15,829 nucleotides of DNA from Dioszegia crocea (taxonomy: Eukaryota; Basidiomycota; Tremellomycetes; Tremellales; Bulleribasidiaceae), in contig BCKK01000017.1 in NCBI GenBank assembly GCA_001600615.1, forward strand, positions 1 to 15,829, given 5' to 3'. The notes below the pieces were generated by a model. That model was not told the DNA's origin. It made no database searches and was given only the letters and a program-made list of their open reading frames with translations. Below, one piece after another: positions 1,987 through 15,829 of this stretch (position 1 is its first letter; each line of letters starts with the position of its first letter). The position numbers and the translations under genes are program-made.

Positions 1987-2818
1987 ATGGCAGGCGTCAT
2001 CTCGAAATTGGCAAAGTACGGCGCGTGTGATGTACGTTCCCTCCATCCCCCTCCTTCTCTGTGTCCACTTCGCTTATGCTGGAAGATCGCCGATGCGCTC
2101 ACTAAGTTGAAATATCCAGCGGGAGGATTTCTTTCGGGGCTGGAGCTGCGGGCATCCACAGATCACTCCACTAAGATGGTCGGACGGGCTCATACTGTAC
2201 TCTTCCGGCGCAATTCAATTGCAGCGCCAATAAAACGGTTTCAAGGGCACTACGTGAGTTTACGTGAGCCATGGCCTCAGATGTGCCTTGAGTTCAGAGG
2301 GACTTGATGGGATCTCATTGCAAAAAACACTCCTACTTATGCGCACGAGGCTAATCTTCGCCTAGATCGACACCGTCACCCCTGGGTCCGTGCTCTTCAT
2401 TTCGGCCCCGGAAAACATGCCGAACGCAGTATACGGTGGTCTCATGGCGAAACGCGCGCAGGTACTGGGCGCCGTCGGAGCTGTAGTCGATGGCCGTATA
2501 CGGGATTTAGCCGAGCACCGTGACATCAAACTTCCCACGTTCTCACGGGGAGTTGGGATCACTGCTGGACAGGAGCTATGCTATTCTTCGGAGATCAATG
2601 TTCCGGTCCGGCTGCACTCGACCGGACAGGCGGAAGTGTGGGTGAAGCCAGGGGATATCATCGTGGGCGATGAGAATGGAATCGCGTGCATTCCGCAGGA
2701 GCTAGAACAGCAAGTTGTGGACATTATCGAGAGCCTCGCGGAAAGGGATAGATTGAGCATGGAGGACATTGCTGGTGGCAGATCAGCCGATGAGACCTTC
2801 AGGGCTCGGCGTGTTTAG
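1987..2818 (+). CDS. RraA-family aldolase (CHA/HMG aldolase-like)
   Basis: Spliced from 1987-2031, 2086-2253 and 2366-2818, giving 221 aa. Introns are 54 nt (GTACGT...AAG) and 112 nt (GTGAGT...CTAG, branch CTAAT). The first intron is a multiple of three without a stop, so the genomic frame reads through it. The protein is a full-length RraA-like fold (family usually about 200-240 aa). It shows the G-X20-R-D-X2-E motif of divalent-metal class II 4-hydroxy-4-methyl-2-oxoglutarate/4-carboxy-4-hydroxy-2-oxoadipate (CHA) aldolases as G96, R117, D118, E121, inside GAVVDGRIRDLAE. These enzymes cleave CHA to pyruvate and oxaloacetate, and many also decarboxylate oxaloacetate. I chose the ATG at 1987 because homologs begin just before the A-C-D-x-x-D-A-L motif. 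In-frame ATGs further upstream (1837, 1843) would add about 50 residues with no family match. No targeting peptide is evident, so it is probably cytosolic. The substrate is inferred. Confidence 0.92.
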
Positions 2819-3484
2819 ACCTCTTGATGGGTTCCCATTTTGTAGACGCGTAGAAAACGGCAGTAGATGCTATCAGTGAGTTTGTGCTACTTAATTCAGC
2901 CGATCTGACTGAATCAATCTGCAACGGTAGGAGATGTACAGGCAGCTGTCCAAAAAGCTACCTCATTCTGATCTTATAGCTGCGTCGTCTGACCCTGCTA
3001 GGCTAAGACTCATGGAGCTCTCAACATGACCGATCTTTTGTTTTCGATGCTCGATCGCAATACCGGTGCGAAGCTATGCGGACCAGGATGACCGGAGCCT
3101 GGACCACCTTGAACGACCACTAGACAGTGTCATATACTGCTTGAATCAAATCACATCAAGAGAGCGCGTAGTTATCGAAGAGAGCGGACATGACACAGAC
3201 GCGTCTGTGTTGATGTATTAGATCCCATGACCAAGCGAAAGTGGCGGACTGGGGTATTCTGTCTCCACTCCCGGTATTGCGTCAGCCTCCACCGGCATTC
3301 CTCCTCCTATATCCCGACATAGTGCTCAATCTTTGATGTATCAGAGGAGGAACGGGGACACCACCGCCGATTCCGGCCTGTCGACAATGACAAAATTGCG
3401 CAGGGCTTTCTGAGAGAATTTCACGTCACTCGTACAGCATCCCGCCGAAGTCTGAGTGCTATCGTACTACAGCTAAGTACTATG
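2819..3484. other. Intergenic region between convergent 3' ends
   Basis: This stretch lies between the stop codons of the aldolase (plus) and the aconitase-like gene (minus). It should hold the two 3' untranslated regions and terminators. I see no open frame with family similarity, no RNA gene and no clear repeat in it. Confidence 0.6.
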
Positions 3485-6192
3485 CTACTCAGGACGGAGT
3501 GTGTTGAGCGCCGAGCCCGCCTTGAACCACTCGATCTGGATGGGCGTCAAAGTGTGGGTGCAGGAAATCGTCTCCTCCTCTTTTCCTTCATTTCTGAAAT
3601 GTAAATGGAGCTCGGATCCTGGAGCAAGACATCCCACGCCCGACAGTCTGACGCGAGCGTTCGGTTCGATTCTTTCATAGTCCTCCCCATTGCTGAAAAA
3701 CAAAGGGAGCAATCCTTGCTTTTTGAGGTTCTGATTCCATCAGCATAGGTGCACATCTTACCGGGAACTTGCGGGACTGACAGTCTCGTGAATCCGTGCC
3801 ATGGACTTTGCAATCACTGCGAACCCCCCCATGTATCGTGGGGACATTGCAGCTGCCTCGCGAGAAGAGCCTTCTCCGTAATTATCACCAGCGATGACGA
3901 CCCATTTCCGGCCGGCATTCCGGTACGCCCTGACACATCAGCTAAAATGTATTCAGAGGGGGAGTATCTGCTTACTCAGCGGTCGAAGGCACAGAGCCAT
4001 AATCCCCGGTCATTGAGTTTCGTACAGAGTTGACTTTATCCTGAGCCGATATCAGCATACATAAAGAGATAGTTTGGCTAATAGAAGCAGCAGACACTTA
4101 CGTTTTCGGCGTTCACGGCGCCAATCAAGAGATTTTCTTTCGATCAGCCAACTGTCGTAATAATCGGTACGGGCATGACACACGGGAGATATTCTGAAGG
4201 TGACCTCGGTACTTGTACCAAGGCCCCGCGGCGGAAATGTGGTCCGTAGCTATTGGTCAGCCATTTCAGAGAGGCCTGGAGGACTGATAGGACTTGCTGC
4301 ATTTCCCCTTCACCTTGATCAAGATTTCCAGCCTTTGTTCGTCATTCCCGTTCCAGGGTTCGAATCGTTGAATCAACTGGATCCGCTCAGAGTTTGGGTC
4401 GACAACGACTCCCAAAGTGGAATCCACACCGGGAGGCGGACTGTAGTACGAAAGAGTCCGATCGTAACCGTTTTTGGGTAAGGCGGGTCCTTGTGGTGGC
4501 GAGAACCGGAATTGGGAACCATCCGCCAAAGTCAAGCTGTCGCGAAGAGGGTTGAAAGCGAGATCGCCCGCAAAGGCCATGGCTGTCACAATCTCCGGGC
4601 TGGCGACGAAGCTATGTGTGGACGGGTTTCCATCTTGCCGGCCGACAAAGTTTCGATTGAAGGATGAGATGACTAAAGTTCAGCACAGGAAGTATAGGGA
4701 AACTGACTGGAATTCCTCTGTTTCGCAGGCATCTTCGGGCGCTCCCATTGACCAACACAAGCACCGCACGCATTTGCGAGTACCACGCCCCCGACTTCCT
4801 CCAATACGTTCAAGATGCCGTCGCGAGATACGGTCGAACGGATCTCCTCAGATCCAGGACTAATCAGGAACTCAGTCTTAATTCGAAGGCCGGCATCAGT
4901 CGCCTGTTTGGCCAGAGAAGCAGCGCGCGACAGGTCCTCGTACGACGAATTCGTGCAGGAACCGATCAATGCGGAGGAGATTTGCCGGGGCCAACTGGAC
5001 GTTTTCACTGCGTCCGACATTTCCGAAATCGACCAAGAAAGATCCGGCGTAAAAGGGCCATTGACGTGAGGTTCAAGCGTGGATAGATCCTGGGATTAGA
5101 GCGCTGCAAAGCAAATTACTCACTATTTCGATAATACTGTCGTACTCTGCGCCATCATCTGCCTTGAGATCGTTTTGATAATGATCAGCAGCTTGAGCAA
5201 TTCGAGATCGTCCGGTGAGACTGAGGTAGTCGGACATTCCCTTGTTGTAAGGGAAGATCGAGCAAGTCGCACCGACTTCGGCGCCCATATTTCCGATCGT
5301 GCCCATCCCCGTTGCCGAAAGCGCATCCACCCCAGGACCGAAGTATTCGATGATCGATCCGGTACCGCCTCTCACCGTTAGGATCGATGCCACCTTCAAG
5401 ATGATGTCTTTGGTACTGGCCCAGGGATTGAGGTGGCCTGTCAGTCGGACGCCGATGATGTTTGGATGCCTGAGCTCGTAGGCCAATCCTGCCATAACAT
5501 CAACTGCTTCCATCCCACCGACCCCAATGCCCAACATTCCCAGTCCTGCGGCGTTTGGCGTGTGGGAATCCGAACCAATCATCAATCCGCCGGGGTATGC
5601 GTATTGCTCGAAAATGACCTGATGTAGGATACCAGCTCCTGGTTTCCAGAACGCCAACCCGTATTTAGCACAGCAGGACTCGAGGAAATCGTAAACCTCC
5701 TTATTGATATCCACCGCCTTTGCAAGGTCAACTGCCGCTCCATCTCGAGCGGTGATGAGGTGGTCGGTATGGACGGAAGAAGGAACGCAAACTTGGGGGA
5801 TTTGGGTGGTCATGAATTGTAGTAGAGCCATTTGGGCGTTTGCGTCTCTCTGTCAGTCTCCACGTGTAGCGCAAAAACTCACCATGCAGCGCAACCCTTT
5901 TTGGTCGAAGACGCAAAATCGACTCTCCGCGCTTCAGTTCTTGCGTCTGTGCATCGTCGAGATGACCATACAGGATTTTTTCCGCCAAACTCAGCCTCTT
6001 TCCTGCCCTTCCATTAATATCATTCCCACGGCTGACTTACTGTTTTCTGACAGCTTGGATCTGCGCTGACACCTTTCCGTACTCTATGAAAGTCTCTGGC
6101 TCAATTGGGCTACCCTGCACACGAGCGTGCTTCGCAATATGGTGGGCGAAGCCACGCTTCGACAAGTGCGCCAGCCTGAGTGTCGGAATCAT
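3485..6192 (-). CDS. Aconitase-family hydratase, mitochondrial, divergent paralog
   Basis: Ten exons (minus): 6192-6041, 5995-5883, 5845-5124, 5089-4708, 4672-4298, 4249-4184, 4136-4102, 4040-3976, 3929-3782, 3730-3485; 767 aa, near the usual 780. Introns are 45, 37, 34, 35, 48 (GC-AG), 47, 61, 46 and 51 nt; all join in frame. The start at 6192 gives a basic, acid-free N-terminus (about residues 1-28), a likely mitochondrial presequence. The [4Fe-4S] cysteines are C374 (GSCTNSS), C437 and C440 ([10 protein letters not shown]). Other conserved motifs are [29 protein letters not shown] and GEGSSRE (S658, R660). Aconitases interconvert citrate, cis-aconitate and isocitrate. Departures from the usual sequence are SSREAAAM where SSREHAAL is typical (A662 for His) and Ala439 for Pro in the CxxC loop. 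The divergence and neighbours suggest a specialised hydratase, possibly for 4-oxalomesaconate. A redundant TCA-cycle aconitase or an aconitate-forming enzyme remain alternatives. Confidence 0.95.
4250..4297 (-). other. GC-AG intron in the aconitase-like gene
   Basis: The fifth intron starts with GCAAGT instead of GT and ends ...GCTGACCAATAG, with CTGAC as the branch site. Splicing restores the K-G-K-C-T-T-D-H-I-S motif of aconitases. No GT donor in the neighbourhood keeps the motif, and reading through meets a stop. The length is 48 nt. Confidence 0.85.
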
Positions 6193-6510
6193 TGGGTACC
6201 GCTCAGGTGTAAGGATACTGTTGAGGGATACTTGCAGATACCAAAACAAGATCCTTGAAGGATAGGTGGATAGGTCGACAAATGACAACGGCGGTCTCGG
6301 GCCGACCGGGCTTAACGGGTTTAACGGGCATAATCGGTCAAGAAGCGGATTTAGCGGAGGCCGGCTAGTCAGCCGTTAACCGCGTTATCGGATTTGAAAC
6401 AAGCTGAGCCTGGATTGCAAGCCGTGAGGTGGTATACATGGCAACTGACTATATAATGATAGTATGCTATACATTCGGCTCATAGGGTATCGTGCATACA
6501 CGCCGTCAAT
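6193..6510. promoter_or_regulatory. Divergent promoter: aconitase-like gene / tricarboxylate carrier
   Basis: These 318 bases separate the start codons of two head-to-head genes. On the plus strand TATATAA at 6450-6456, about 55 bases before the carrier ATG, is a plausible TATA box. The middle holds direct repeats: TTAACGGG twice (6312-6319, 6321-6328) and GCGGA twice with a 4-base spacer (6345-6349, 6354-6358). It is rich in CGG/CCG triplets, the half-site of Zn2Cys6 regulators such as the one encoded nearby. That these triplets are bound is inference. The aconitase 5' untranslated region takes up part of the left side. Confidence 0.6.
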
Positions 6511-7544
6511 ATGTCTGAGTGTCCGCAGAATCGACTGAACCCACTGATTGCCGGCGCGGCAGCTGGGATGGCCGAATCGTTCATAACTTATGTACGTCGC
6601 CTACTCGGCCTTGCTCTTCGGATGGCCACTCATCCTTTAGCCCACGGAGTATGTCAAGACCATTGCTCAAATGAGTTCCGGGCGGCATGTGAGACAAGCA
6701 ACACCCGTCTCCGTGATCAGGGACACCTTCGCGGCAAGCGGCCTCCCCGGTTTCTACAGGGGTTGCGCGCCTGTCATTGCAGGCAATGCACTCAAAGCCG
6801 GGACACGATTTTTTACCTATGAAAGCATACGAGGGATGCTTCGATCATCGGACGGCAAGATGAGCATGCCCGGAAATCTGCTAGCGGGTATCGGGGCGGG
6901 CTGTATAGAAAGCATCGTCGCAGTCACGCCATCGGAGGCTATAAAGTGAGTAGCTCTTTGACTAGAACTCACCGCAGAACTCGATTGATCGAATCACAAC
7001 GCCTGGGTAGTGCGCTGAGTTCAGGCGGATCGCTGAATGCCGTTGTGGTGATGATCAAGACAGACCGTTTGTCCAGCCTTTACAGGGGGCTGGTTCCGAC
7101 AGTGAGCCGATCCAGTCGACCTGTCCATCCGCGCTTACATCTCCTAGATGCTCAAGCAGAGCGCGAACTCTGCCGTCCGATTTACCTCGTATCAGACGAT
7201 GAAGGATCTCGCTCTCAAGAAAAGCGGCGCCCCGACACTGTCGAATGGAATGATCATGGGAATCGGCGGTCTTGCAGGCGTCATTACTGTCTACTGCACC
7301 ATGCCTTTTGAGTAAGTAGAGTCAGCTTATTTGTAGGCTGACGATCAGCGTGGTCAAAACTCGGATGCAACAATCCGAAGTCCGTTACACGTCGACACTG
7401 GACTGCCTCGTTAAGTCCTTCAGGGAGGAGGGGCTTTTGGTATTTTGGCGCGGATCAGCTCCTCGGGTAGCGAGATTGACCATCTCAGGCACGGTTACAT
7501 TCGTCATCTACGAGAATGTCCTGAAGATGTTAGGTAGTTTCTGA
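6511..7544 (+). CDS. Mitochondrial citrate/tricarboxylate carrier (SLC25 family)
   Basis: Spliced from 6511-6591, 6641-6945, 6978-7101, 7148-7311 and 7349-7544, giving 289 aa, the normal carrier length. Introns are 49, 32, 46 and 37 nt. All three mitochondrial-carrier signatures P-x-[DE]-x-x-[KR] are intact: PTEYVK (28-33), PSEAIK (124-129) and PFDVVK (223-228), one per repeat, as expected for the six-helix inner-membrane fold. Motifs such as GNALKAGTRFF, GCIESIVAVTP and YRGLVP place it in the citrate-transport-protein branch (yeast Ctp1/SLC25A1-like; A. terreus MttA also belongs near here). These proteins exchange tricarboxylates across the inner membrane. It is divergently paired with the aconitase-like gene, so the two are probably co-expressed. 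Given that pairing, the cargo could be citrate, cis-aconitate or a pathway tricarboxylate such as 4-oxalomesaconate or CHA. Sequence alone does not fix the substrate. Confidence 0.94.
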
Positions 7545-8109
7545 GAGGGTAGATAGGGATCTGAAGATGCTCCGGGCTCCCGTTTGTTGCAGCCGATGGA
7601 TTTTAGACCATACCCTAAGCGTGCTCTGTACATTCTGAGAGAAAGCGATATTATGTCACGCGAAGGTAAAAGATCTGGAACTTGGCAGATGTCGTACGGA
7701 GGGACCTCGAGAGCTGCCGTTGACCCAGACGCAGACTAGATACTACATCGGGACTATGGAATTTGCTTCATGGTTGTAAGTCGGCACCCGGCCTAAGCGC
7801 TACCAGACAGCCCGTCACGCACCGTGCCACGGACTTGGCCTGATCATTGTTATCTCAGCTGCTATGTAGGGCGAATCGGCGCCCATCATGCGGAGTGCCC
7901 TTTAATAGCCACATGGCAAAAACTCCGTGTCCTGACGTAATCTTCCACTCACCGCCATTTTCCGCTTCTTCGATATGATCGACGACAGCAGCGGCCCACC
8001 GCACCTGGCTACCAACACAGCTGACTTGTAGATATCTTATATACTGCCCTCCACCCTTTCTGAATTTTCTGTGCTCCCTATCATCTACAGGGAATACGCA
8101 CACATTGAG
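7545..8109. promoter_or_regulatory. Intergenic region and promoter of the Zn2Cys6 gene
   Basis: The region holds the carrier 3' flank and the regulator's upstream region. A TATA-like word (TTATATA, around 8038-8044) lies about 66 bases before the ATG at 8110, followed by a pyrimidine-rich tract (CCCTCCACCCTTTCT) typical of fungal transcription starts. I see no gene: minus-strand open frames here have no recognisable similarity. Confidence 0.45.
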
Positions 8110-10349
8110 ATGAACTCCCTACATGGGTCGCCAGACTATGACCTCCCATCTGAGGTCGTGCAAGGCAGAGACGGGAAACGAAAGCGGCAGAGGGCGGCTT
8201 ATAGCTGTACGGAATGTACGAAGGGGAAAAGCAAGGTCCGTTTGCTCCTGATCAAAGCTCATTATCAGTGCGACAGACAGCATCCCTGCGGCAGATGTGT
8301 GTCGAGAAGGATCCCTCATATGTGTCACTACCTCGTTAACGGTTATGAAGATCCATTGGAGGCTAGTCGGGATATGAAGGAACGGCTGCAGAGGATTGAA
8401 ACGCTGATCCTGGAAACCAAGTCTGCGGTACTAGGTTGCGGTCCCTCTTCCTCAGCTCCCAAAACCTCAAGTCCAGCGCGTCAAGGCTCGCCTGGCATTG
8501 GCTCCTCACAGGTGGCGGGGAAGCGAGGAGGTTTCGTAAAGTCAGGGCGTTATTATGGAGCTTCTGCCATGTCCCATGTCTCGGGCGGAGTGGCGAACGA
8601 CATCATGGATGCCTTGGAGGTAAGCTCCGGCGTGGGTCTGGGCTAACCTTAAGATCGCCCTTCCGAACCCCCCCGAGACCCTTCCAGGCGGGGATAGACG
8701 GCCGCCAAAAGAGCTGGTCACCATTATTCACGACGTGCCACCTCGGCCTCTTTGCGATCGTCTTTTGAATGCATACTTCCGTGATATAAAGTGAGCCCAG
8801 TGCAGGTGGTTGCTGACGGTAGTGCTACAAGGTATCCTATCGACCAGGCGGCATTCATGGCAGTCTTCTATCACACCTTGTGGCCCGCGCTGTCACATTT
8901 TGCCTTGGAGACGCATCATATCCATCAGCTCCCACTCCTCTTCATCATTCTTGCCATCACCACCCTATCTTCGCCAGTCTCTGCTTTCGACTTGCCGTCG
9001 GGGTCGACCGCCGCTGAAGGTGCTGAGCACAGGCTCGCAAAAGCAGAAGAGCTATTTGGCAGCTCTCGGAAGGCGAGCGCATACTCGGACACCATTTTGC
9101 TCGGTCGTGGGGACTTAGCACTCGTCATGTCGGATCTCCTCTCTGTTCGGTACCTGATTCTCGCGCGACGGGCGCCCGATGTGGCTCCCATACTTGGCTC
9201 GGCTATCTGCCGAGCACAAGCTCTGGGGCTGCACCGCTATATCCACATCGAAGGCCAAGAAGAGGTCGGAGCGATTCAGCAGGAACGACGTCTGATCTGG
9301 AGGTGGGTCTCTCGTTATGGACCGCACTGATAGAAGTTATGCCTATCATGTCGACCGTTACTGCAGTCTGCTTCTCGGTCGGCCACTGATAATCTCGGAT
9401 ACTGCATGTGACGCCAAGCCCCCACTAAATATCGGGGCGGATGGTATATGTCGAGGGCCCGGAGAGTTGACGCGAAATTCTTTCCTCATCGCTCGAAACT
9501 CCCTCGCATACCTTGAAGGGAGAATCACCACAGAAGTTTACGCATTGCGTCAACCAATGTATACGACAATCAACCAGCTTCATAGCGACCTACAGCTCTG
9601 GGCTAGTGGTCTTCCCGTTGGCCTCAGCATCCGCTCCTACGGCATTAGGGACCATCATACTCCCCTGGACGCCACGCTGGGCATGCATCGTTACTTCCTC
9701 TCCACCGAATACCACTTTGCGCGAATCAGTTTGCATAGATCATACCTCGCTCGACAGGATCCCGACAACAAATACAAGCTCAGTCGTCAGACATGTCTAT
9801 CCGCCGCCATGGACGATCTGTGGGCGCGAACACTTTTCAGCGAGAGTAATCAAGACGCGCAGCATATGAGCTCGGGCTCTTATCGAGTAACAAACTCTCT
9901 TGTCATCTTAGGGTCAGGTCTTAAATGCTTGTCCAAGCTGATCCTGTAGAATCTCGCTTCTGCTTCAACCTCCTGCCGAGACATTAAAGGCAATTCAGAG
10001 CTGCCTTGCTCAATTCGCCCAGTCGCAGAAGGGCAGCGGCAAGGTACTCGACGAGGCGACTCTCAAGGAAGTGGCGAAGGTCGAACTCCTTCAGATGAAA
10101 GCCGACCAGGACGTCGTTAGAGCATTCAGCAGGGCTAGCTCGCCACAGCCACTGCTTGATGATCCATGGGGCGCACATAACTCTACTCTCGACCCCGGTG
10201 TCCAATCTTTGCTCGACGGCTTGTGGCCATACAATGCGGATGGAGGCCCGGACAGCCTTCCGGGAGTCCTTGGGGACGAGCTGGGCGACGTAGTGGATAT
10301 TTGGGATAGTTTTGGCGTGTTGTTCGGTCTGAACAACCAGGATAGGTAG
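8110..10349 (+). CDS. Zn2Cys6 fungal transcription factor, likely cluster regulator
   Basis: Six exons: 8110-8235, 8269-8619, 8654-8790, 8832-9302, 9337-9912 and 9950-10349, giving 686 aa. All five introns are very short (33, 34, 41, 34 and 37 nt). The Gal4-type binuclear zinc cluster uses C33, C36, C43, C49, C52 and C61 (CX2CX6CX5CX2CX8C), preceded by a basic KRKRQR stretch. It is complete only after the first intron is removed. A short heptad-like segment (about 78-97) could be the dimerisation coiled coil. The middle homology region (PF04082 type) follows, with YPIDQ (206-210), LPLLFIILAITTL, LGLHRY and SLLLGRPLIISD (372-383). The C-terminus is acidic from about residue 640 and may activate transcription. 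Such proteins bind CGG half-sites. Its position among the enzyme genes suggests a pathway-specific regulator; activator or repressor cannot be told. The start ATG is the first one in frame upstream of the zinc cluster. Confidence 0.94.
8236..8268 (+). other. 33-nt in-frame intron inside the zinc cluster
   Basis: The intron runs from GTCCGT to ATCAG. It contains no stop and has a length divisible by three, so an unspliced message would still make a protein, with 11 extra residues between the second and third zinc-cluster cysteines (CX17C instead of CX6C). Removing it gives the canonical CX2CX6C spacing, which is the evidence for the intron. The donor is weak compared with the GTGAGT/GTAAGC donors elsewhere in this gene. 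Confidence 0.8.
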
Positions 10350-10734
10350 ACCTTGATCTCATTCCGCTTGTTATCAAATCAAGTGCATGAAGCGCGGCAT
10401 ATTACAACTTCAGACCTCACCGTAGTATGCGGCGAACAAGGCTCAGTCCTCACATCACCCTCGAGGCTGTCCTGTATCGGGGGGATGGACTGGGCATCAT
10501 TTGTCCTTCGTATTCGTCTGATCTGCGAGTATGCTTGGCGTCACGCTCTGCGCTATCGCAATGGAGACGACGCTGACGGTTGCTCTTCGTGCGCTGTATA
10601 GTGCGCGGCCTTCTCTCGCTTGCCTGGATACTTGCGTGATTTCGAGAGTCAAGGGCAGCTTATTGAGATTAGGCGAAACGTATGAATGACGTGATGTGCT
10701 GTTATTTCGTCACTGCTACATACGTACAAAGTGG
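10350..10734 (+). other. Downstream flank of the Zn2Cys6 gene, no gene seen
   Basis: This region probably holds the 3' untranslated region and terminator of the transcription factor. One 82-codon open frame (10353-10601) has no recognisable domain and follows the stop codon directly, so I do not call it. Confidence 0.4.
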
Positions 10735-10913
10735 CGACATGTAGCTTAATATGTAGATAGCCTCACAATTGGGCTACATAAGCTACATAGGCTACATAGC
10801 TTATGCTACGTAGCCGCATAGCTTAGGCCACACAGGCTACATAGCTACATAGGCTACATAAGTGAAGACATAGTAGCTAGTAGACAGGTAGCCGAGTAGC
10901 CAGACTAGACAGC
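10735..10913. repeat. Degenerate GGCTACATA/TAGCTACATA repeat tract
   Basis: Variants of a 9-10 base unit (GGCTACATA, AGCTACATAG, GTAGCC, TATGCTACGTAGCC) recur through this tract, in tandem around 10772-10800 and 10834-10860 and more scattered on both sides. Unit length and spacing vary and there are no unique spacers, so this is a decayed simple or satellite-like repeat, possibly from the end of a transposable element. Confidence 0.65.
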
Positions 10914-11210
10914 CCCGTATATACATAAGGCGAAGTCGATTGAGCTGCGCCGGGCTTTTGCCGAGGCAGAATACACATGCATCGTGTACCGGAGGCGGGG
11001 GGTGATGGCTCTTCTTCAGCCTGCTACCGCGATGGATTCAGCGATCGGCAGTAAAGATCGATGCGGCTAGCTACCGCGCGTACCGCAACGCGCAGACAGC
11101 CGGGACTCAAGGCCGCATAAGTATTCAAGACCAGCAGAAGTAGCTGATTCAGAATCTCGGTATATACAGAGTTGCTAAGATATATGCTGCGAATGATTGC
11201 AGTTCGATAC

Positions 11211-11510
11211 TTAGGTATACGGAGCTAGATCGGTGCTAGATACTAGAAATTTTGCACCACGTGTTGTGGATAGAATATTAAGGGGTATTCTGCAATAGTT
11301 AATATCCGAGAATACTAATCGAGCGCCCGCCATAACTGTCTTAGTTACAGGAGCCCAAGGTAGTAGAATCATAGCACCAACGAGGAAGATAAATGTAACG
11401 GCTGATTGTGAAACCGACGATACTTGGAATAGTCCACTGTAGATACCTGCGCCAGATCCAATAGCTTGGATGTCAAGGTATACTCGGATAGCAGTAGCAT
11501 AAGGATCGTG
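11211..11510 (-). pseudogene. Start-less open frame in repeat-like DNA
   Basis: A stop-free minus-strand frame of 99 codons lies between a TAG (11513-11511) and a TAA (11213-11211), with no start near its beginning. The middle is hydrophobic (SQSAVTFIFLVGAMILLPW), like one membrane segment, and is followed by APVTKTVMAGARLVFSD. The DNA includes a GAATA/TATTC inverted repeat around 11274-11291. I do not recognise the family. It could be a fragment of a transposon or membrane-protein gene, or a chance frame in a dispersed repeat. Confidence 0.3.
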
Positions 11511-11886
11511 CTAAATCGACACCAGGTCTCTCGAGTATCCCAGTCAAAGGATTTCTTGGTGATGGGGGAAGGAGGGCCCCAGCCATAGCTGTTGCTCAGA
11601 AGATCGTTGTCTACAATGCAGGGGCTAGAGGTCGCTTCGGTACAGATAGGTCCCGGAATCCAGTTTGTTCGGCTCCCCTCGTTGGGAACCGGTCTCATGG
11701 GAACTATACTTCTCCTCAGATTTGTGTCTCGATGCCACTCTCGCCAAGCTTCGCAAGCAGAATCGCCAATCTGCGAAGTCTTCCTCTTGGGCCGAGCTTG
11801 CCGTTACTCCTCGCCCACCACACTGGCGAAGTAGCCAAGCTTGAGCTAGGCATCTTGTCTATTGGCTTCCCTGACGTCTGCCATGC

Positions 11887-12150
11887 GTAATACGATGTGG
11901 GATCTGCCTTACCTTGTCAATGGTGGCGCACAAGCCTGTCAGTGGCCCAATGAGAAGCTCTGAGGAGGTTTCCAAATATCTCAAGCATTCCGCCAGGTCT
12001 ACGGGAGATCGGGGTGAGGACATGAGATGATGAAATATAGCGACGCAGACGTATTTCGCAGCCAACTCAGTGTCGATCTCACAAATTCAGCTCGAGCTGT
12101 GCTTAGCGATCTGCCAAAGACGGCGAAGGTAGGGAGAGGACGGTCCGCTG
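11887..12150 (-). pseudogene. Possible broken gene fragment of unknown function
   Basis: A minus-strand frame encodes a segment of protein-like composition (for example SPRSPVDLAECLRYLETSSE) and ends at a potential GTAAGG donor near 11911. Reading upstream, the same frame is cut by a TGA near 12083 but continues with plausible residues beyond it, so this may be an exon with a disabling stop. No convincing partner exon was found to the left, and the rest of 11514-12377 holds only short open frames. No family is recognised. It may be the relic of a gene that once stood between the regulator and the transporter. Confidence 0.3.
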
Positions 12151-12377
12151 GCATGATGGATATGGTGGGGACCTGGGATGACTCTGAAGAGAGAAAGTTT
12201 GCTCTGTTGTCATTGCCGAATAATCCTGGCATGATTTGTCTATCATCATGCACTTTCAACGTGTATCTTATCGCACTGCTTGACAACGTTCTCATCTCAT
12301 GTGATATAAGATAGCAAAAGGTATGATCCGCTTGATCGGCGAAACGGTGTCTCATGCTCCAGGAGTTCCTCTATCTC

Positions 12378-14191
12378 TCAAACCCTGTCGACCCGCTCCA
12401 CTTCCACAAAGTCTTCCTTCTTTATCTCGTTAATATCTAAGTCGCTAGCGGTTCCCGCAGCGCCCTCGGCGGGGCCGCGTATGAGGACGGCCTTGCGAAT
12501 GCCGTTCAGGTACCATCGGCGACCAAAGAGGGTGTCCATGTGCTCGATAGCGATATTCTTCGTCTCTGCAAGAGTCAGGCCGAGACGAGATGGTGTGCGG
12601 AACTTGTACTCACCAGGAAGGGCGAAGAAGACATAGATGATGATGACCGTAGAAACGATAGCAAAGATGGCGAAGGGGCCATATGCTCCAATATTTGCGA
12701 CCATATTGGGGAAGAAGCGGGTAAGGCAGAAGTTCACGAGGTACTGCATACCGATGGTCACCGACATGATCTTGGCTCGCATCCTGTTGGGGAAGACCTC
12801 CCCGTTGAGGCCAAACGCAACGGGGGCCCAGCCGATGCCATATCCAATGGCAAAGATGCAGACGGCGGCGATGGCAACCCAACCCGCCGCCTGGTTCTTG
12901 CCAGCCAGAATCCCCAGGTAAATGGCAATCCAGGCCACGCAGAGCATGTTGACGCCGGACCCGACGAGCAACATGTTTCGTCGCCCAAATCGCTCGGACA
13001 GGAGGAATGCGTATGTGAGCACCGCCAGGACCTTCATGAGACCGTAGATGCCTGAGAAGAGGTAGGCCCCGTCCGAGGTGGTAACTCCGATCGTGCTGAG
13101 GATAGATGTTTGGTAATAGGTGATCGAGTTACCGCCGGAGAAGTTGAAACCGATCTGGATGATCATGATGAGGATGAACCGGCGCATGAGCGTTTCATCC
13201 GCCCGAAGTTCCCTGTAGAGACCTGCCCACGAAGACGAGGTAGCAATCTCCTTCTCCATGTTGATCGATTGGTAGATCTCGTTGTATTCGGCCTGGACGA
13301 AGGGGTGCTCGCTCGGCAAATTGCGAATACGGACCAGAGCCTGGCGGGCAGCATCGTTACGGCCGCGGAGGACGAGATATCGTGGGGATTCGGGGATGAA
13401 GAATAGTCCGACAAGCAGGATCAATCCAGGGTACTGATCATGGTCAGCCCTAGCGTGGCTATTATGAATCGACGAACTCACTAGCTGGAAGAGGATGGGG
13501 GTACGCCATTGCCAGTGAGATGTGGCAGGAATGTAGAGGACCGCAATGTAATTGATCCAGTAGCCGAATGAGACGCCGAGCATGATGTTTGTGCTGAAGA
13601 AAGCACCCAGAACACCACGAATCGCCTTGGGAGCGATCTCGGCGAGGTATAGGGTAGAAGTGACAGTTCCTACTCCTGAAGCGTACCCCTGGACGGCACG
13701 ACCGCCAATGACCTGGTTTACGCTACCGGTGGCGACGAGTTGAACCACTGTTCCAACGCAACTGCATCTGTCAGGAGCGACGATTAGATGCAGAGGAAAA
13801 GACTTACTAGAGAACAGCAGACCCAAACAAAGTCCACTTCCTGCCGATCCGGTCATTGAACGGAGAAGACGTCAAAGCTCCGAATAGACCACCGAGAACG
13901 ATGACACTGGTGATCCAGCCGGAGATGTTGCTCTTCTCTTCGGCAGAGTAGGATGCAAGGTTGAATGTAGAGACGAAGTCTTTCATCTAGTCTGAGTCAG
14001 TCTTGAAGAAATCCTCAAGACGCGGTACGTACCGCTAAGATACCAGAAATGTTACTGGTATTCGCCCCGTGCAGCCCGCCGCCAAACGATATGATGATTG
14101 CCATGAAGAAGACGAATTTGTTCAGGACCTCCTTGGGAGTCGAGGCAAGCGCCTGCTTGTTGATAAGGGCTCCGAGACCGCCGCCAGCCAT
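12378..14191 (-). CDS. MFS transporter, sugar/quinate porter family
   Basis: Five exons (minus): 14191-14033, 13986-13808, 13761-13482, 13433-12614 and 12565-12378, giving 541 aa. Introns are 46, 46, 48 and 48 nt. For the second I used the acceptor ATGCAG at 13762, because the nearer one (CTGACAG) would create a stop. The protein has the layout of the 12-helix sugar-porter family: motif A NDRIGRK (97-103), the YLAEIAPKAIRG signature, PESPR (220-224) before the central loop, SERFGRR (352-358), EVFPNRMR (418-425) and a PETK motif (479-482). Helix 1 carries GGGLHGANTSNISG instead of the more common GYDxGVxGG, and helix 7 has GGNSITYYQ, so the substrate need not be a hexose; related fungal proteins move quinate and other acids. 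It is a plasma-membrane importer by family, divergently transcribed from the amidohydrolase gene, and probably brings in the pathway substrate. Confidence 0.94.
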
Positions 14192-14370
14192 CCTGATTAT
14201 TGAGTATCGGTGAGGGAGTGGGCGAAGTGATGCGCAAAGCCTTGTGGAGGTGTATCATGATTGTGGGCGTGTGCTCTTGCAGGGATGATATATATGATCT
14301 CGGGATGGCGCGATGTGAGAGGCGTTGCCCCGGCCTTGCGGGGCAAACCCGCAGAATTGTGGAGATCTTT

Positions 14371-14386
14371 GCGGAGCGCCTTCCGC
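14371..14386. promoter_or_regulatory. Candidate Zn2Cys6 site, CGG-N8-CCG
   Basis: GCGGAGCGCCTTCCGC is an inverted repeat with 5-base arms GCGGA/TCCGC, containing CGG-N8-CCG. Gal4-type dimers bind inverted CGG triplets with a protein-specific spacing. GCGGA also occurs twice as a direct repeat in the aconitase/carrier promoter. Binding by the regulator in this window is inference. Confidence 0.4.
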
Positions 14387-14422
14387 TAAAGCCTGTTATA
14401 ACCGGTAAACGCTTGGGCGGAT

Positions 14423-14444
14423 GAACCCGCGGTCGGACGGGTTC
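14423..14444. promoter_or_regulatory. Perfect inverted repeat GAACCCG-N8-CGGGTTC
   Basis: Seven-base perfect arms flank the 8-base centre CGGTCGGA, which itself holds two CGG triplets. It lies in the middle of the divergent promoter, about 230 bases from one start codon and 190 from the other. It could be an operator for a dimeric regulator or a relic of a repeat. Confidence 0.4.
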
Positions 14445-14635
14445 TCGCCGCAAGCTAGTAGTAACGTAAATCAGGTCGGGCTCGGCGCCAGATATTTTGG
14501 TGCCCCTGGCGGCTCCGGCTTAGCCGGCCAGTCTCCGCAGCTCGTCCACTGGCTTCGGAGAGCCGTAAATATGTAAGAGACTCTGGCCCTCAGAACCTCG
14601 TAGCGCCCTGAGCAACACGGACGACGACCAGTATC

Positions 14636-15638
14636 ATGCCCTCCCTGGCCGATACTGCGCCCCCAAGGACCGATCAGATCTGCCCGGCAGGCAGCTGGGA
14701 TGTTCATCACCACATCTTCGAGCTCGACCGGTTTCCACTGTCACCCACGAGACACTTCACTCCTTCTCCGGCCACACTATCGCAGCTCGAAGCTTACCAG
14801 CACTCGATGGGGATCGACCATGTCGCCATGTCGCACGGTCTATCCTTTGGAACGGATATGAGCTCCTTGCGTGCATATATGAGGTATTTTGACGGAGGTT
14901 GCAGGGCGTACGGATGCGTGGATATTGAGACGGTGACGGACGAGGATATCAAGCAGCTGCAATCGGAGGTGGGTGCTTTGAGACGTAGACACCATTTGCA
15001 TGCTGATAGGAAAGGGCATCATCGGGACCCGCATTGACTTTCACTTCTATAAAGCTCAGCACAACCTGGACGAGCAGGTCAAGCGCATCCGCCAATACGG
15101 CCAGCGAGTCAAAAAATCCGGCTGGGGCCTGTCCATCTACCATCCTCATCCAGAGTTTTACGAGACTCTTTCGCCCATCATCCGGGAGATCCAGACTCCG
15201 GTGGTCATCGACCACTTTGGTGGGCTGCAGACGGCATCTCTGCTTGCATACAAGGGGATCGACACGTTCGGCTTTGACGTGACTAGTCAGCCGGGCTTGA
15301 CGGCTATCTGCGGACTCCTCGCCGACGCCAAGCTTTGGATCAAGCTCAGCGCGCCATACCGGGTTTCCGAAGACCCTACGTATGAGGACATGCGCCCCAT
15401 CGTACGCGCTCTCGTGGATGCCAACCAGGACCGAGTCTTATACGGCTCGGACTGGCCCCACACACAACCCTTCCACAGGCGGTCGCAGGATATGAAGGGG
15501 ACAGATGTCGAAACACCCTTGAAGTTCGATGATCTTGCTTGGGTTCGCAAATTGAAATCATGGTTGAGTGAGGAGGAGTGGAGGAAATTGATGGTGGATA
15601 ATCCGCGAAGCTTTTTAGGGTATGCAGAAAAGAATTAG
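14636..15638 (+). CDS. Amidohydrolase, 2-pyrone-4,6-dicarboxylate lactonase-like
   Basis: Two exons, 14636-14968 and 15015-15638, give 318 aa. The 46-nt intron (GTGGGT...GGAAAG, branch CTGAT) was chosen because it joins in phase to a G-I-I-G-T-R-I-D-F strand; the nearer TAG acceptor does not fit the reading frame with this donor. The protein is an amidohydrolase-2 TIM barrel (PF04909). From recall of Sphingobium LigI, the metal-independent enzyme converting 2-pyrone-4,6-dicarboxylate to 4-oxalomesaconate, most active-site positions have counterparts: H24/H26 (DVHHHIF, strand 1), R117, Y153, H178 (VVIDHFGG), R227 (KLSAPYR) and D257 (YGSDWPH, strand 8). The second carboxylate-binding Arg (LigI R130) appears replaced by Y123 or K124, so the exact lactone substrate is uncertain. 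Other lactonases of this family (fucono-, rhamnono- or sulfomuconolactone) are alternatives. There is no signal peptide; it is likely cytosolic. It shares a promoter region with the transporter. Confidence 0.9.
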
Positions 15639-15680: not shown

Positions 15681-15762
15681 TTAGGGGGTGATTGATTGCA
15701 TGTATATGAGCTATAAGATATTTGTTGTCTTTACTTAGGGGTGATTGAGTTGCATTTGTGCT
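15681..15762. repeat. Imperfect short direct duplication downstream of the amidohydrolase
   Basis: TTAGGGGGTGATTGATTGCA (15681-15700) recurs as TTAGGGGTGATTGAGTTGCA near 15735-15754, and similar T/G-rich sequence follows both copies. It probably lies in the 3' untranslated region or terminator. No gene is seen between 15639 and the window end. Confidence 0.5.
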
Positions 15763-15829
15763 ATGTAGTAGGTACTTGGGTTTGCTACTAGTTAGCCTCT
15801 CTCACCCCCGTCTACCACCCTGCTTCCCA

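Follow-up and report, generated by a model that had tools for sequence, protein, structure and literature searches.

A conserved gene cluster with an altered aconitase and a probable role in lactone catabolism in Dioszegia crocea

Which organic acid is broken down by the enzymes encoded together on a short contig of the basidiomycete Dioszegia crocea (accession no. BCKK01000017.1)? The window analysed here is this entire contig (C17), 15,829 bases long, of a 17-contig, 20.57-Mb genome. A sequence-only reading had recognized six linked gene families between positions 1987 and 15638, namely an RraA-type aldolase, an aconitase, a mitochondrial carrier, a Zn2Cys6 regulator, a major facilitator superfamily (MFS) transporter and a lactonase-like amidohydrolase, and had proposed for them the lower pathway of gallate or 2-pyrone-4,6-dicarboxylate (PDC) breakdown. 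All six genes and their linkage were confirmed by manual splicing followed by Pfam and NCBIfam searches, and the outer limits coincide exactly with the start of the RraA gene and the stop of the amidohydrolase gene. Five hand-spliced gene models are complete, each giving a single open protein, and the regulator was modelled in its first part. The genes probably form a conserved catabolic cluster that converts a lactone into a tricarboxylate, whichever acid that may be. PDC or a close relative, degraded via 4-oxalomesaconate (OMA) and 4-carboxy-4-hydroxy-2-oxoadipate (CHA), is put forward tentatively as the substrate on sequence grounds.

The conservation of the core of the cluster is evident from other fungi. 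Among the best 120 of 222 lactonase relatives, the closest were those of Kwoniella and Cryptococcus (63–66%), followed by Rhodosporidiobolus, Leucosporidium and Meredithblackwellia (51–55%). Each of the 10 species in this top group was likewise represented among the best 120 of 8000 aconitase relatives, and in nine of them the lactonase and the aconitase are on a contig of equal reported size. Only in C. neoformans do the two proteins come from contigs of differing size. A close RraA homologue was found in five of the 10 species (all 72 RraA matches), and in Penicillium salamii a less closely related lactonase (44%) was matched by an RraA protein (50%) with the same contig size. Linkage in these genomes was judged from locus tags (Table 1) and equal sizes of the longest contigs, not from the contigs read, and equal sizes are weak evidence where the contigs are chromosome-sized (Kwoniella sp. 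B9012 and M. eburnea). By these comparisons the linkage of lactonase, aldolase and aconitase is beyond chance, and its recurrence in other basidiomycetes rules out the view that the genes are chance neighbours. Co-conservation had been named as a test that could refute the original proposal; these three enzymes passed it.

The aconitase is not truncated, as an open reading frame listing that ends near position 4266 might suggest, because a GC-AG intron (4250–4297) leads to further exons that encode the C-terminal swivel domain. The protein scored 1081.6 bits against the aconitase_mito equivalog of NCBIfam (cut-off 825.35), and its alignment to bovine aconitase spans 748 residues. Further aconitase-family genes are located on contigs C1, C2, C3 and C4 of the same genome. 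The C4 enzyme is of the canonical type (against a basidiomycete aconitase, two of its best stretches reach 69 and 76% and the others 43–60%) and groups in trees with the canonical housekeeping aconitases of basidiomycetes. The window enzyme groups with 12 relatives in a clade of its own (13 rows, support 100/100), which was also recovered without the long-branched C1 row of D. crocea. Within this clade, 19 of 20 active-site positions examined are retained; the changed one is Gln72, a citrate ligand. Position 72 is His in 12 of the 13 rows and Gln in all 107 other sequences examined; the remaining row, that of Pseudohyphozyma, has Pro, and the residues before it seem to be wrongly predicted. 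The window protein shares with mitochondrial aconitase (Aco1) the full domain set, the Fe-S cysteines (C358, C421 and C424), the catalytic residues and a presequence-like N-terminus, which is basic and acid-poor in the window enzyme and in the 11 relatives shown. It differs from Aco1 in lacking the full citrate-ligand set that includes Gln72, and in its clade-fixed changes: of 380 positions with a conservation of 95% or more elsewhere, 40 differ in all clade members, among them P423A, I425V, L577Y (13/13) and H646A/V (13/13). OMA differs from aconitate by an additional C=O in one arm, and CHA is the corresponding analogue of citrate. Since the pair mirrors aconitate and citrate, hydration of OMA would be aconitase-type chemistry, and the paralogue is a candidate OMA hydratase.

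Among solved structures the lactonase is most similar to LigI, which is its top match in the Protein Data Bank by sequence (1e-14) and also the top fold match (E 5e-17, TM 0.73) of a structure predicted for the orthologue from K. dejecticola (pLDDT 95). The LigI residues H31, H33, R124, Y156, H180, R217 and D248, its catalytic residues among them, are retained. Tyr156 is present in all 10 cluster-type proteins and in 21 of 24 bacterial ones, and in none of the 66 relatives that come next in similarity; 65 of these have Thr or Gln, and those with a named source are mostly fungal.

The closest solved relative of the RraA enzyme is yeast Yer010Cp (2c5q, 1e-29), an RraA-like 4-hydroxy-4-methyl-2-oxoglutarate (HMG) aldolase/oxaloacetate decarboxylase with a G-X20-R-D-X2-E motif; the window protein differs from it by clustering with a lactonase and an aconitase paralogue. 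The same motif begins at residue 96 of the window protein, as in RraA-like class II pyruvate aldolases, and occurs in 46 of 72 RraA relatives and in all six close ones checked. Known CHA aldolases possess the RraA fold, and G-X20-R-D-X2-E is a motif of active HMG/CHA-type aldolases; in RraA-like class II pyruvate aldolases the metal/catalytic motif has the form D-X20-R-D or G-X20-R-D-X2-E/D. PMC5065237 states that most RraA homologues bear one of two motifs and are therefore likely class II pyruvate aldolases. Other chemistry on this fold is possible, and PMC8563752 reports an RraA-fold dehydratase/decarboxylase.

In the proposed route, the MFS protein would import the acid, the LigI-like lactonase would open PDC to OMA, the carrier would take OMA into the mitochondrion, the aconitase paralogue would serve as the hydratase for the OMA to CHA step, and the RraA enzyme would split CHA into pyruvate and oxaloacetate. 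The Zn2Cys6 protein would turn the gene set on through TTWRCGG sites. The three enzymes appear to fit the sequence PDC, OMA, CHA, pyruvate plus oxaloacetate with one enzyme for each step; all substrates, transport steps and compartments, as well as the link between regulator and motif, are what we infer. The known lower pathway of protocatechuate 4,5-cleavage and gallate degradation (LigI, LigJ/GalB and LigK/GalC) has in common with the window a LigI-fold lactonase, a LigK (RraA)-fold aldolase and a hydratase slot between them. The window differs in that an aconitase paralogue would act as the hydratase and LigJ/GalB is not among its six families, in that its lactonase and aldolase are not equivalogs, and in having a fungal carrier, an MFS transporter and a Zn2Cys6 regulator and no linked dioxygenase.

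The carrier had been described as a mitochondrial tricarboxylate carrier. Membership of the mitochondrial carrier family (PF00153) holds; the citrate/tricarboxylate (Ctp1-like) type is presumed from sequence likeness, the profile search having returned the general carrier family only. Its nearest stretches in the D. crocea genome (50 and 52%) are on C4. In a search of the 1062 promoter bases of the structural genes for every 7-letter pattern in which two positions were 2-fold degenerate, TTWRCGG was the best, with nine sites against 0.24 expected; an equal score was reached in one of 150 random segment sets, which is the search-corrected figure. The whole window has 12 sites against 5.1 expected, a number reached in one of 200 shuffles. 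The promoter sites fall in the spacers of the two divergent gene pairs, aconitase/carrier and MFS/amidohydrolase, and upstream of RraA (Table 1). With its CGG triplet, which is typical of Zn2Cys6 binding sites, the motif is a putative target of the regulator of the cluster. It was not found in the 564 bases preceding the regulator gene. The later pieces of the regulator matched no Pfam family.

Related lactonase genes also occur in loci of other composition. A related lactonase was located in 79 bacterial loci, 18 of which also encode RraA. In one of these, L121, the 11 reading frames scanned include a second amidohydrolase, RraA, a 2-hydroxyacid dehydrogenase, TctC receptors and SMP-30, among others, a set that points to a carboxylate pathway. 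That such loci are true protocatechuate 4,5-cleavage operons was rejected, as no ring-cleavage dioxygenase was found among the 11 frames of L121. Since lactonase and RraA pairs sit in loci of other make-up, the pair alone does not imply PDC. In D. crocea itself, a family search of C1 at 404–417 kb revealed a 2-hydroxyacid dehydrogenase, two amidohydrolases, RraA and a fumarylacetoacetate-hydrolase-type frame. The frames of this locus are L018:6815-7801, L019:2250-3068, L019:5428-6333 and L019:7209-8915, with MFS- and Zn2Cys6-like frames seen by eye, and its enzyme set is much like that of L121. The C1 and L121-type loci share with the window the adjoining amidohydrolase and RraA genes and differ from it by the 2-hydroxyacid dehydrogenase and in that no aconitase was found. 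TTWRCGG was absent from the 10 kb of the C1 locus that L019 covers.

An aconitase is encoded in four of the 79 bacterial lactonase loci (Table 1), and the three that were typed are all of the AcnA type. In Bosea the aconitase frame (5356–7983) overlaps the start of the lactonase (7980–8852). All four lactonase-linked bacterial aconitases have His at the place of Gln72. Seven further AcnA-type frames of the same four genomes were aligned, of which five have Gln and two His, and no related lactonase was found within 16 and 20 kb around the two unlinked His72 frames. His72 was therefore rejected as a mark of lactonase linkage alone and is suggestive only. The cases are few and not independent, three of the four lactonase-linked His72 proteins being 54–58% alike. 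In the three linked loci scanned, the transporters are TctC (Bosea and Cupriavidus) and CitMHS (Pantoea); the Cupriavidus and Pantoea loci also have Iso_dh, an aldehyde dehydrogenase and a PF10282 lactonase. No RraA or ring-cleavage gene was seen in these three loci (20 frames scanned in two, 10 in one), and RraA was absent from all four. Like the window, these loci combine a lactonase of the same family with a nearby aconitase in which His replaces Gln72. Unlike it, they have an aconitase of the AcnA branch and, in place of RraA, genes for TctC, CitMHS, Iso_dh and aldehyde dehydrogenase. A related lactonase next to a His72 aconitase in two aconitase branches suggests one kind of chemistry, as far as sequences can tell. 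It is an unlikely proposition that a change of Gln72 to His adapted the aconitase fold, in basidiomycete mitochondria and independently in bacterial AcnA enzymes, to follow a LigI-type lactonase, with the fungal enzyme being the OMA hydratase of a partly mitochondrial eukaryotic lower gallate/PDC pathway without LigJ/GalB.

The assignment to PDC breakdown stood in part. The co-conserved enzymes, the distinct aconitase with its changed ligand, the RraA motif and LigI as the nearest lactonase relative argue for it, and several observations weigh against it. Arg130 of LigI is not retained in the lactonase. In a tree with lactonases from 36 of the 79 bacterial loci (L099 was left out for an in-frame stop and 42 others were not entered), the fungal lactonases form their own clade (100/100) apart from the bacterial RraA-linked group (100/99); the position of LigI was unresolved, and it did not group with the fungal clade. 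The RraA protein scored 57.1 bits against 304.5 (TIGR02798) and 63.9 against 179 (NF006731), far below both CHA-aldolase equivalog cut-offs. These models are strict, and the RraA protein of L121 also falls far below one and narrowly below the other. The clade-fixed changes of the aconitase are not significantly nearer to active-site residues along the sequence (11/40 versus 85/380, P 0.26). Filobasidium and Pseudohyphozyma have a clade aconitase and no close lactonase or RraA among the matches listed. Lactonase and RraA pairs occur in the loci of other make-up described above, where none of the scanned frames encodes a ring-cleavage enzyme, and the setting of the bacterial lactonase/aconitase loci leans more to a citrate analogue than to aromatic breakdown. 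Finally, no source of PDC is known: the intradiol dioxygenase family PF00775 had no match in the genome (the control was positive in 4 of 14, all prokaryotes).

The earlier statement that the window contains no ring-cleavage enzyme agrees with our searches, in which no such family was seen. If PDC is the substrate, it would have to be imported or made by another route. PF02900 had three matches on C8, two of them above the cut-off, away from the cluster; neighbouring weak LigB-type (PF02900) matches are at C8:626119-629327. In Aspergillus niger, according to PMC10512348, growth on gallate was intact after deletion of all 17 predicted ring-cleavage genes and required an FAD monooxygenase. The same paper cites aconitic acids in A. 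niger and, from Gurujeyalakshmi and Mahadevan (1987), OMA and pyruvate in gallate-grown A. flavus. A Rhodosporidium genome paper assigns protocatechuate 4,5-cleavage enzymes by Pfam domains alone (PMC9830802). Among the papers listed in searches of the open-access literature there was no fungal OMA hydratase, aconitase/RraA cluster or aconitase-type OMA hydratase.

A serious rival to PDC is a citrate-analogue lactone such as hydroxycitrate lactone (hibiscus or garcinia acid), which is somewhat unlikely in absolute terms. The lactonase would open the lactone, the carrier would bring hydroxycitrate to the mitochondria, the aconitase would dehydrate it to the enol/oxalosuccinate, and RraA as a beta-keto-acid decarboxylase would yield 2-oxoglutarate. 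This route employs every gene, requires no ring-cleavage enzyme and fits the altered aconitase and the presequence-like N-termini. RraA-fold enzymes are established decarboxylases of oxaloacetate, but their action on oxalosuccinate is conjecture. The bacterial lactonase/His72 loci, with TctC or CitMHS and, in two of three scanned, Iso_dh, fit a citrate-like acid as well or better; because of them, the confidence placed in PDC was lowered slightly and that in a hydroxycitrate-type lactone raised to a similar extent. On the other hand, no RraA accompanies the four bacterial aconitases, the nearest solved relative of the lactonase is LigI, and a literature search listed a plant review and no such pathway.

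Ordinary tricarboxylate use is rather improbable. Here citrate, aconitate or isocitrate lactone would be handled by a true inducible aconitase and a citrate carrier, with RraA converting oxaloacetate to pyruvate as a decarboxylase. The chemistry is the simplest, the carrier family agrees with it, and the aconitase exceeds the aconitate hydratase equivalog cut-off with its active site almost entirely kept (19 of 20 residues). It leaves poorly explained, however, why the aconitase belongs to a clade of its own, with His for Gln72 and further fixed changes, where a canonical aconitase is already present, and a lactonase would be needed for the lactone only. Still less probable is another lactone, derived from a sugar acid or a different pyrone, with the aconitase in an unrelated supporting part. 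The lactonase family is multifunctional, the sole NCBIfam match of the window protein being 4-sulfomuconolactone hydrolase (NF042924; 103.3 bits, far under the cut-off of 500), and lactonase and RraA pairs also occur with 2-hydroxyacid dehydrogenase and TctC genes. The clustered aconitase and carrier, in contrast, indicate a tricarboxylate, and the aconitase is linked to the lactonase in other species. PDC or a close relative is retained as the tentative substrate.

The cluster is probably subtelomeric, as the last approximately 95 bases of the contig recur, whole or in part, at most 0.3 kb from an end of C4, C5, C7, C8, C9, C10, C11, C12 and C13. On the left, bases 1–317 and 664–1725 are interspersed repeats with copies on other contigs (pieces of the former on C9, C10, C5 and C13; the latter with 91% identity to two C1 copies), which probably account for the contig break there. 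Between the regulator and the MFS gene, approximately 2 kb (10350–12377) have no clear gene; this region includes a 9-base tandem repeat (10772–10860) and may be a gene relic. Its short frames matched no Pfam family, nor did pieces of the left repeat and of 11211–12314, and Rfam and tRNA scans gave no match. The cluster genes include a number of very short introns of 32–37 bases.

Table 1. Genes, sites and repeat of the D. crocea window, and related loci in other organisms
Feature	Position or locus tags	Strand	Remarks
RraA-family aldolase/oxaloacetate-decarboxylase-type enzyme	1987-2818	+	221 aa; PF03737, E 7e-28; exons 1987-2031, 2086-2253, 2366-2818
Mitochondrial-type aconitase paralogue, full-length	3485-6192	-	771 aa; PF00330 and PF00694; 10 exons
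Mitochondrial carrier	6511-7544	+	289 aa; PF00153; 5 exons
Zn2Cys6 transcription factor, putative cluster regulator	about 8109-10349	+	PF00172; exon borders approximate
MFS transporter, sugar-porter type	12378-14191	-	557 aa; PF00083; 4 exons; proposed importer
Amidohydrolase-2, lactonase-type, LigI-like	14636-15638	+	321 aa; PF04909; exons 14636-14972, 15010-15638
End repeat	15734-15829	none	common to ends of nine other contigs
TTWRCGG, upstream of RraA (1816-1832)	1816, 1826
TTWRCGG, divergent aconitase/carrier promoter (6193-6510)	6312, 6321, 6351, 6373
TTWRCGG, divergent MFS/lactonase promoter (14192-14635)	14368, 14383, 14563
R. poonsookiae	002044, 002049, 002050		RraA, lactonase, aconitase
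R. lusitaniae	003724, 003721, 003720		RraA, lactonase, aconitase
R. ruineniae	003747, 003748, 003744		RraA, lactonase, aconitase
R. microsporus	003576, 003573		lactonase, aconitase
K. dejecticola	I303_105644, I303_105645		lactonase, RraA
Bosea	L132:5356-8852		lactonase/AcnA locus
Cupriavidus	L077:34-8888		lactonase/AcnA locus
Pantoea	L069:8001-16824		lactonase/AcnA locus
Xanthobacteraceae	L071 (with L147)		lactonase/AcnA locus

The late breakdown of gallate-like ring compounds by fungi is poorly known. If the PDC assignment is true, the cluster would provide a directly testable pathway with one enzyme for each lower step and a new activity of the aconitase fold, as well as a way for yeast to make or to use PDC, which is a building block of polymers. 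Even with another lactone as the substrate, the conserved clade of altered aconitases, together with the similar ligand change in lactonase-linked bacterial aconitases, poses a clear question of enzyme function.

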